Origin: Intrasporangiaceae bacterium
GTDB taxonomy: Bacteria > Actinomycetota > Actinomycetes > Actinomycetales > Dermatophilaceae
NCBI GenBank assembly: GCA_012838445.1
Contig: DUPF01000231.1
Span: 1 to 55,429 of the forward strand
Length of the DNA: 55,429 bases
Direction: 5' to 3'
The translations under genes and the position numbers were made by a program. The notes beneath the pieces were generated by a model, which saw only the letters and a program-made list of their open reading frames with translations, had not been told where the DNA came from and did no database searches. Positions 50,040 to 53,771 of the stretch are shown in pieces. Position 1 is the first letter of the stretch, and each line of letters begins with the position of its first letter.

Positions 50040-51239
50040 CTACTGCTGGCCGATCGCGCCGAGGAGCTCCTGGAACCAGCCGACGGACGGGTCGAACTTC
50101 TTGTGCCCCTTGATCCGGGGGAACTCGATGGCCCGCAACTCGTCGCCGCGCTCCTCGTCGTGGCCGACGACGCCGGAGACTCCGGCCATCGCCGACTCGA
50201 CCGCGAGCGTGGTGCACGTGTCGATGAGCTCGAGGTCCTCGCTGTTCGGGGCGGCCGAGCGGGAGAAGTACCCCGACTTCTGGACCATCGTCTTCTCCGC
50301 ACCGACGAGCTCGGCGAACTGCTTGGCGAACCAGGCCCCCGGGTTGACCTTGTCGAGCTGGACGTGCCCGAACGGGTCGACCGGCACCTCTTCACCCTTG
50401 GCGCGCATCTCCTCGACGATCTCCTCCACGCCGGCACCCTCGGAGAGGAAGATGTTGACGCAGCCGATCTCGTCCATGACGGCCTTGAGCCGGTCGGCCT
50501 CCGCGTGCAGGTCCGGGTGCAGCTCGGGGACGTAGACCGCGTGCACGTCCCAGCAGCGCGGGTCGTTGCCGAAGCCGGTGACGAACTCCTGCTCCCCCAC
50601 CCATGCGTGGTAGCGACGGGCGGTCTCGGCGGTCAGCCAGCCACAGTTGCGGCCCATGACCTCGTGGACGATGAGCATCCGCGGGTTCGAGGAGTGTTCG
50701 GCGATGATGTTCTTGGCGTAGAGCGAGCCCTGCTCGGCGGCGGTCCAGGCGCCGAGGCTCTGCCGGATCGGGACGACGTCGTTGTCGATCGTCTTCGGCA
50801 ACCCGACGACGGTCAGTTCGTAGTCGTTCTCGTGCAGGTAGGCGGCCAGGTCCGCCGCGGTGGTGTTCGTGTCGTCGCCGCCGATCGTGTGCAGGACGTC
50901 GACACCGTCCTTGGTCAACTGCTCGGCCGCGACGTGGAGCGGGTCCTGCCCCTCCTGGACCAGTCCGCGCTTGACGCAGTCCTCGACGTTGGTCAGCTTG
51001 ACCCGGCTGTTTCCGATCGGGGAGCCGCCGCGCAGGTGGAACAGGTGCGCCTTCTCCCGCACCTCCGGGGTGACCTCGTCGTAGCGGCCGGTGAGCAGGC
51101 CGGCATACCCGTCGAGGTAGCCGATGATCCGGATGCTCGGGTCCAGAGCGGTGTACTTCTCGATGAGGCCCCCGACAGCGGAGGACAGGCACGGGGCCAG
51201 GCCACCGGCGGTGAGGAGGGCGACGGTGCGGACGGTCAT
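50040..51239 (-). CDS. pfp: Pyrophosphate--fructose-6-phosphate 1-phosphotransferase
   Basis: 'LHTIGGDDTNTTAADLA' and 'VVGLPKTIDNDV' (GGDD and PKT residues of PPi-dependent PFKs). Confidence 0.93.
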   Translation of the reverse strand: MTVRTVALLTAGGLAPCLSSAVGGLIEKYTALDPSIRIIGYLDGYAGLLTGRYDEVTPEVREKAHLFHLRGGSPIGNSRVKLTNVEDCVKRGLVQEGQDPLHVAAEQLTKDGVDVLHTIGGDDTNTTAADLAAYLHENDYELTVVGLPKTIDNDVVPIRQSLGAWTAAEQGSLYAKNIIAEHSSNPRMLIVHEVMGRNCGWLTAETARRYHAWVGEQEFVTGFGNDPRCWDVHAVYVPELHPDLHAEADRLKAVMDEIGCVNIFLSEGAGVEEIVEEMRAKGEEVPVDPFGHVQLDKVNPGAWFAKQFAELVGAEKTMVQKSGYFSRSAAPNSEDLELIDTCTTLAVESAMAGVSGVVGHDEERGDELRAIEFPRIKGHKKFDPSVGWFQELLGAIGQQ

Positions 51240-51381
51240 GGTGGCGTTCACCTTTCGTGGGATGACACAACGGGTATGCGGCACTCGCCTCCATCATGGC
51301 GCATTGCGACGGTCCTGGCCCGACCGGGCAGCGCGCGAGGTGTTCGCCGTGCCGTGCTCGCTGTCAGGCGCGGACGAGCCG

Positions 51382-51480
51382 AGGCGCTCGGCGCGAGACG
51401 AGGCGGTTGCACACCGCGAGGCGCAATAGCACCTCGCCTCGCACAGACCACCTCGCGTCACGCGCGCCACCTCACCTCGC
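51382..51480. repeat. 99-bp direct repeat, copy 1
   Basis: Gapless alignment to 52545-52643 with about 10 mismatches; contains internal GCGAGGCG/CGCCTCGC inverted repeat. Confidence 0.95.
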
Positions 51481-51572
51481 CACCGGTCGTGGAGCCGCCA
51501 TCAACGCCCACTCGCCCGCTTACTGTGGATAACTTCCGTCGGTCAGGACCGCGACGTGCTGAGATCGATGCC

Positions 51573-52523
51573 ATGATCGCGAAGCCGCCGCCTTTCGACC
51601 CCACCGCGCTGCGGGTGCGAGCCGACCTGCGCCAGTTGGCTCTCGACCCTGCGCGCGCCGGGTGGCATTGCGTTCGCCGTGGTGTGTGGCTTCCGCCGGG
51701 TGCCTGGGAGGCCCTCCCCGTGGACCAACAGTTCGAGGCCTTCGTTTTCGCCACACTGCTCAGTTGTCAGGAGCCGCAGGACGTCATCATGTGCGGTCCG
51801 GCCGCCGCCGCCGTGTGGGGTATGCCGAGCATCGATCCGTGGCCGCGGGTCGTGCATGTCCTCGATCCGGACCGGCAGATGGGCCCGTCCCGCTACATCC
51901 GGCCCCGGGGCGGTGCGCCGGTACAGCCTCGAGAGGTCAAGGGTGCCCTCGTCACGCCACCTGCTCGGACCGTGATCGACCTGGCCTGCACCGGCTCGAT
52001 GGAGAATGCCCTGGCCGCGGCTGACTATGCACTGCGCGAGAAGCTGTGCACGCGTGCCGACCTCGAGACCGAAGCAGCGGCGCTGGCGCCCGGTGCTCGT
52101 GGCCGGTCGGTGTGCCGGGTGCTGGTCGATCTGGCTGACGGCCTGAGTGGGTCGGCGGGCGAGAGCCTGTCTCGTCTGGTCATGTTCCGAGCCAACTTCT
52201 CGCGGCCGGTCCTGCAGCGTGAGTATCGCGATGAACTCGGGCTCATCGGCTATGTCGACTTCGACCTTCCCGGACTCATCGGCGAGTTCGACGGGAAGAT
52301 CAAGTACAAGGTGCCACCTACGGCGACCCCGGAGGAGGCGAGCACGATCGTCTGGGAGGAGAAGATCCGAGAGGACCGCCTCCGGCGCATCAAGCCAGTC
52401 GCGCGCTGGACGTGGTCGGTGGCCCGTACCCCGGGCGCCCTCGCTCGACTCCTCATCAGCCACGGGTTGCGTCCGCTGCCCAGATCGACATGGTTCGACC
52501 TCGGTGAGCGGCCTGCGTCGTGA
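51573..52523 (+). CDS. AbiEi-like/DUF559-type putative PD-(D/E)XK protein
   Basis: 'GYVDFDLPGLIGEFDGKIKYKV...EEKIREDRLRRI' nuclease-like motif, N-terminal 'GWHCVRRGVWLPP... MCGPAAAAVWGMPS' AbiEi-antitoxin-like; bracketed by 99-bp direct repeats. Confidence 0.8.
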   Translation: MIAKPPPFDPTALRVRADLRQLALDPARAGWHCVRRGVWLPPGAWEALPVDQQFEAFVFATLLSCQEPQDVIMCGPAAAAVWGMPSIDPWPRVVHVLDPDRQMGPSRYIRPRGGAPVQPREVKGALVTPPARTVIDLACTGSMENALAAADYALREKLCTRADLETEAAALAPGARGRSVCRVLVDLADGLSGSAGESLSRLVMFRANFSRPVLQREYRDELGLIGYVDFDLPGLIGEFDGKIKYKVPPTATPEEASTIVWEEKIREDRLRRIKPVARWTWSVARTPGALARLLISHGLRPLPRSTWFDLGERPAS

Positions 52524-52544
52524 GCGATAGCCCGCGCCGAGGCT

Positions 52545-52643
52545 AGGCGTTCGGCGCGAGACGAGGCGTTCGCACACCCCGAGGCGCAATAACACCTCAC
52601 CTCGCACAGAGCACCTCGCATCACACGCACCACCTCACCTCGC
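52545..52643. repeat. 99-bp direct repeat, copy 2
   Basis: See 51382-51480. Confidence 0.95.
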
Positions 52644-52685: not shown

Positions 52686-53771
52686 TCAGGCCGGGTCGGC
52701 GCCGGTCAACTCCCGGGCGACCAGGCCCGCGGTCTGGAGCATGTTCAGCCCGGCACCCTTGCGCAGGTTGTCGCCGCTGACGAAGAAGTCGAGGGACCGG
52801 GGGAAGTCCGGGCTCTGCCGGAGTCGGCCGATGAAGCGGGGGTCGGCGCCGACGACGTCCACCGGTGTCGGGAACTCCCCGGTCTCCGGGTCATCCATGA
52901 GGACGACCATCGGCGCTTCGATGATCGCCCGACGGGCCCGGTCGACGTCGATCGGGCGGGAGAACGTCGCGTGCACCGAGATGGAGTGCGATGACACGAC
53001 CGGGACCCGCACACAGGTGGCCATGACCTTCAGGTCGGGCAGGCCGAGGATCTTGCGCGTCTCATCGCGCAGTTTGCCCTCCTCGGAGGTCCACCCGGCC
53101 CCCTCGTAGTATCCGACGAAGGGGATGACGTTGAGTGCCAACGGTGCCGGGAAGCAGGAGTCGCCGAGTTCGTGCTCGATGAGGCGGCGGATGTCGCCGG
53201 GATGCTGGGCGAGATCCCGTTTGCCGGCGACGACATCGACCTCGTCGAGGAGTCGGGCGATGCCGGCCCGGCCGAGGCCGGAGGCGGCCTGGAAGGAGGT
53301 GACGACCAGGGACTGCAACCCCCAGCCGCGGTGCAGCACCCCGAGGGCGTCGATCATCGTCATCACGGTCGCGCCGGGGTTGGCGATGATGCCGCGCGGC
53401 CGGTTGGCCACCTCTTCGGGGTTGACCTCGGCGACGACGAGCGGCACCCCCTCCTCGCCGCGGTAGGTGATGCTGTTGTCGATGACGACGACACCACGGC
53501 CCGCGGCGTAGTCGACCCACTCGTGGGTGATCTGCGGCGGGATGTCCACCAGGGCGACGTCGACACCGTCGAAGAACGCCTCGTCCAGCGGTTGGATCGT
53601 CAGGTCCTCACCGGCCACGGTCACGGTCGTGCCGACGTCGTCGGCGGCGGCGGCGAGGCGCACCTCGGACCACTCGTGGCGGTACATCGGCAGCACGGAC
53701 AGGATGACCCTGCCGACCGCGCCGGTGGCACCGACGACACCGAGCACAGGCCGGTCGTCGTTGCTCCCCAT
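52686..53771 (-). CDS. asd: Aspartate-semialdehyde dehydrogenase
   Basis: 'LGVVGATGAVGRVILSVL', 'PRGIIANPGATVMTMIDAL'; catalytic Cys position should be checked (see findings). Confidence 0.93.
   Translation of the reverse strand: MGSNDDRPVLGVVGATGAVGRVILSVLPMYRHEWSEVRLAAAADDVGTTVTVAGEDLTIQPLDEAFFDGVDVALVDIPPQITHEWVDYAAGRGVVVIDNSITYRGEEGVPLVVAEVNPEEVANRPRGIIANPGATVMTMIDALGVLHRGWGLQSLVVTSFQAASGLGRAGIARLLDEVDVVAGKRDLAQHPGDIRRLIEHELGDSCFPAPLALNVIPFVGYYEGAGWTSEEGKLRDETRKILGLPDLKVMATCVRVPVVSSHSISVHATFSRPIDVDRARRAIIEAPMVVLMDDPETGEFPTPVDVVGADPRFIGRLRQSPDFPRSLDFFVSGDNLRKGAGLNMLQTAGLVARELTGADPA

Follow-up and report, generated by a model that had tools for sequence, protein, structure and literature searches.

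REP sequences are a puzzle that is decades old; to our knowledge, HUH RAYTs are the only enzyme class tied to them so far. In REP/RAYT systems (REPtrons), the gene is flanked by two palindromes and cognate solo palindromes are dispersed in the same genome; the gene evolves rapidly, the repeats change with it, and they have a hairpin structure (PMC2817692, PMC3733652, PMC8266576). The nuclease family described here resembles REP/RAYT in each of these respects. It differs in that its protein has no Y1/HUH transposase domain (no Pfam match). In addition, a REP/RAYT pair would be expected to have flanks that are always inverted, while here direct and inverted flanks are about equally common (the direct alignment is better in 23 loci, the inverted in 18), and the nuclease-associated repeats are mostly longer than REPs. 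At the level of sequence, comparison of loci and genomes establishes the association of gene and repeat, and with it the bracketing of the gene, a repeat type for each gene lineage, the dispersed solo copies, a turnover of repeat types in step with the gene, the conservation of pairing, the fold predicted for the protein and the absence of Y1/HUH transposases from eight host genomes. Gene and repeats are probably a REP/RAYT-like selfish system of independent origin that uses an enzyme of the PD-(D/E)XK type. No description of an association between this nuclease family and palindromic repeats was found in the open-access literature.

The window, i.e. the whole stretch of 55,429 nucleotides of Intrasporangiaceae DNA that was analysed, contains one such cassette (Table 1). 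The first-pass annotation had reported two 99-bp direct repeats, a single gene for a 316-aa protein between them, and the housekeeping genes pfp and asd on either side. Gene and neighbours are as described; the repeats are real and slightly longer than reported, and align without gaps (BLAST E = 1.1e-33 in a search of the whole genome). The gene is the sole ORF within the repeat pair.

Table 1. Features of the nuclease cassette and its neighbours in the window (z: DNA folding against shuffles)
Feature	Position	Strand	Basis
pfp	50040..51284	minus	Gene adjoining the cassette
Upstream quasi-palindromic repeat, apparently decayed	51375..51480	+	89% identity over 106 nt to downstream copy; solo relatives on C94 and C283; z -1.1
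Core stem GCGAGGCG ... CGCCTCGC around AATAG centre, upstream repeat	51416..51442	.	DNA fold of 51380-51480
316-aa protein, AbiEi-like N-terminal region and predicted Vsr/DUF559-like PD-(D/E)XK-type domain	51573..52523	+	ORF, AlphaFold2, Foldseek, PADLOC
Invariant motif GEFDGKIKY, residues 237-245, nuclease domain	52281..52307	+	Conservation in 57 homologs
Downstream quasi-palindromic repeat, apparently decayed, direct orientation	52538..52643	+	89% identity over 106 nt to upstream copy; z -0.3
asd	52686..53771	minus	Gene adjoining the cassette

A gene-free pfp|asd junction, as envisaged at first reading, occurs in relatives: in L134-L136 the two genes are side by side and the nuclease gene is absent. 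Some relatives have an unrelated ORF between pfp and asd. Since relatives have the junction without the nuclease gene, the window gene has apparently been inserted. In relative G004, the spacer between pfp and asd (L134:1400-1480) has no nuclease gene but contains a different palindrome, GCGAGCCTGCTGCAGCAGGCTCG.

Each window repeat had also been said to fold. The core stem is indeed present in the upstream copy, and the centre of that copy, GGCGCWATAKCGCC, is also found in related C168-type repeats (see below); however, both copies fold as DNA no better than shuffles. Strong folding is seen in two solo copies of the same repeat at other places in the genome (z = -4.9 and -3.7 against shuffles). 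Given the weak fold beside the gene and the strong fold in the solo copies, the window repeats look like decayed palindromes.

The host genome (G000) was available as a whole-genome assembly of 3.38 Mb in 293 contigs. Among the matches listed, the window repeat has two more clear copies, on contigs C94 and C283, with no gene of the nuclease family adjoining. The genome has five further copies of the nuclease gene. All five are bracketed by their own quasi-palindromic repeat, whose sequence differs between paralogs; one type is common to the C168 and C194 paralogs. The paralogs' repeat types also have dispersed solo copies, and the C168 type is found at no fewer than about 16 loci. The first-pass description of a one-gene cassette between dispersed repeats was therefore right and understated the case. 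The contrary suggestion, that the repeat is merely a common REP without a link to cargo, does not hold, as every paralog is paired with a repeat type of its own. The paralogs on C194 (L032) and C168 (L033) are both located at an ftsH|nuclease|hpt-like junction, and their nucleases are clearly different. C194 is a short contig (1739 bp) that possibly comes from a sister species as a contaminant; contamination of the assembly is 5.3%.

The promoters of AbiEi and Rv2827c contain 23-bp inverted repeats to which these proteins themselves bind (PMC7319586); recognition of the repeats by the nuclease protein would thus have a precedent. Pfam and NCBIfam searches of the window protein gave no match, and a sequence-profile search of the PDB found nothing. 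In Pfam, relatives and a paralog match AbiEi_4, MTES_1575 REase and DUF559 weakly, the last two in a paralog. The AbiEi-like N-terminus noticed in the first reading is supported by PADLOC AbiEi profiles, which match 56 of the 57 family members. An AlphaFold2 model of the 316-aa protein, built with 57 sequences, has a pLDDT of 94.1. Foldseek matched this model to Rv2827c and AbiEi (1zel, 6y8q) and, weakly, to the EDxHD enzyme I-Bth0305I (3r3p; TM 0.60 by target length, E 0.81) and Vsr (1vsr; E 1.7). Going by motifs and profile hits, the Rv2827c/AbiEi match is attributed to the N-terminal region and the I-Bth0305I/Vsr match to the C-terminal domain, in line with the nuclease-like motif that had been noticed. 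E197, D229, E238, D240, K244, E263, K264, R266 and E267 are invariant in 57 homologs; within the motif, G237, G241 and Y245 are invariant together with E238, D240 and K244.

According to the model, the protein would combine a DNA-binding region like that of AbiEi with a nuclease fold resembling Vsr and I-Bth0305I. The predicted extra nuclease domain distinguishes it from AbiEi and Rv2827c, which its N-terminal region resembles by fold and by profile. I-Bth0305I-type enzymes are intronic, whereas the gene here is free-standing between palindromes. Compared with Vsr and homing endonucleases, the family has many repeats per genome and the motif EFDGxxKY.

The AbiEi profile matches would also fit a cassette for defence or for a type IV toxin-antitoxin system (AbiE), and a defence-type role had been suggested at the outset. 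This is very improbable. The repeats leave room for a single ORF and hence for no toxin partner inside the cassette; AbiE systems differ in having an AbiEii (DUF1814) gene in the same operon. In addition, the window gene has housekeeping genes as neighbours, and none of the phage records searched holds the protein. Plasmid records gave only five matches, all partial.

A scan of public genomes identified 80 loci of the nuclease family, all in Actinomycetota going by record titles. The 500-bp upstream flank was aligned to the downstream flank for 77 homologs, with 242 genes from the same loci as controls. The similarity of the 5' and 3' flanks exceeds the 99th percentile of the controls in 79% of the homologs; about a fifth have no detectable flanking repeat, and one control scored 132. 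A chance origin of the flanking repeats was rejected on the comparison with the 242 control genes. The repeats are often long palindromes, with arms that reach about 28 bp; the best flank palindrome has a median score of 13.6 at nuclease loci, compared to 6.5 in controls. Median spacing is 88 nt from the end of the repeat to the start codon and 17 nt from the stop codon to the next repeat.

Repeat type goes with the nuclease across genomes. Eight palindromes from seven other genomes each match many places, with counts that are lower bounds, and every listed match lies in the one genome which carries the cognate nuclease gene. Cross-side repeat similarity between loci is at background (about 17) where the proteins are less than 60% identical; it is 30 where they are 60-75% identical and 52 above 75%, with a within-locus value of 42.5. 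A flank of L052 is highly similar to a flank of L093 (score 102); a tRNA was sought at these flanks and none was found. Elsewhere, a solo repeat is located just past a tRNA-Leu gene (L005:1292-1374) and a nuclease cassette adjoins a tRNA-Pro gene (L124:2627-2703).

An unrelated transposase such as a RAYT could have made the palindromes, with nuclease genes landing between them by chance; palindromic extragenic repeats are classically tied to RAYTs (PMC2817692). This is scarcely credible, since each paralog is flanked on either side by matching repeats of its own type, and repeat similarity tracks nuclease similarity. A profile search for Y1_Tnp (PF01797) found no match in eight host genomes, while the E. 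coli control was positive; a RAYT origin of the palindromes was rejected on this basis. Because the enzyme is unrelated and the eight hosts have no Y1_Tnp, the nuclease system is not a member of the REP/RAYT family.

Turnover of the repeats can be followed in Cryobacterium. Flanking palindromes are present at 15 of 17 nuclease loci in five genomes and absent at the other two. The nuclease gene is conserved less than its neighbouring genes. In four sister species, an orthologous nuclease has type A repeats on both flanks in C. glaciale and type B repeats in the other three. Within an 18-kb region, all four C. glaciale solo sites have repeats at orthologous positions in the sister species, and these are mostly type B. 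Type scoring covered these four sites and five more. In PH31-O1, the four solo sites with a scored repeat are all type B. C. flavum has B at four sites, a tandem of B and A at another and a truncated remnant at a further one; C. luteum has a mixture. Genome-wide, among the matches listed, all are type A in C. glaciale and all are type B in PH31-O1. As orthologous sites carry different types across sister species, repeats at fixed places have evidently been replaced by the other type, either through conversion in place or through gain and loss in tandem. The central hairpin is the same in types A and B and is maintained through compensatory changes (covariation of pairing 0.333, against 0.122 in shuffles, 0 of 500 shuffles; slid controls at most 0.19).

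Type A is also present in C. luteum and C. flavum, whose orthologous nuclease has type B flanks; no nuclease with type A flanks was found in either species. A search for clean empty sites of type A or B solo repeats found none. At L056:11265 there is a solo palindrome similar to the repeat type of one C. cryoconiti paralog; two sister species lack it. In C. flavum C40, a tandem of type B and type A repeats occurs twice, about 1.5 kb apart (L268:3413-5182). Some nuclease genes contain an internal stop codon and are apparently decaying (L053:5884-6828; L251 and L261, C. flavum C21).

In the favoured REP/RAYT-like reading, the protein would bind and cut the repeats and cause their spread, and the system would be mobile. 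The protein would recognise its own palindromic repeat, probably via the AbiEi-like winged-helix region; the Vsr-like nuclease domain would nick or cut at or near the palindrome, perhaps once this has formed an extruded hairpin. Repair that draws on another copy, or an insertion in tandem with subsequent loss, would then bring the repeat type to new sites or to existing ones. With a copy on each side, the nuclease gene itself may occasionally be copied or moved, and solo repeats would be the non-autonomous part of the system. Tentatively, the enzyme may be a homing-type nuclease which drives selfish repeats by cutting resident palindromes and overwriting them with its own type; in this case the repeat set of a genome would be converted when the nuclease changes specificity.

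The family is widespread in actinobacteria and is present where no RAYT-type transposase was found. If an unrelated nuclease family does follow REP-like repeat-gene logic, such systems arose more than once. This would also account for palindromes that are now left unannotated, and many natural enzyme-repeat pairs of differing specificity would be available for comparison.

The positions of solo repeats bear on two further explanations. Nine of 20 type A solo repeats are at convergent, eight at tandem and three at divergent intergenic positions, with gene orientations taken from a simple GC3-based gene guess; the copies are mostly at 3' ends of genes. The protein could be an AbiEi-type transcription regulator whose nuclease fold is no longer catalytic; the flanking palindromes would be autoregulatory operators and the solo copies its regulon. 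Its AbiEi-like N-terminal region and the inverted-repeat binding of AbiEi and Rv2827c at their own promoters (PMC7319586) are in keeping with this, but a promoter regulon is disfavoured by the location of the solo copies at gene 3' ends, with only three of the 20 between divergent genes. A further repeat copy is found just past the stop codon (median 17 nt), the repeats have a length of about 70 nt and keep their pairing, and the candidate catalytic residues are invariant; regulation is thus an unlikely explanation.

Strong hairpins at 3' ends of genes might instead act as RNA (terminators, mRNA-stabilising or processing sites) and spread by another route, with the protein perhaps cutting them as an RNase. 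This is quite unlikely: it leaves unexplained both the match of own-type repeats on the two sides of the nuclease and their joint turnover, no Rfam family covers the repeats, and the nearest folds of the nuclease domain are DNA endonucleases.

Two other elements were observed in C. glaciale. One is a minisatellite of CCGAAGCCGAAAA-like units (L070:8523-8725), which three sister species lack. The C. glaciale region also contains a fluoride riboswitch (Rfam RF01734) at L238:8615-8684.
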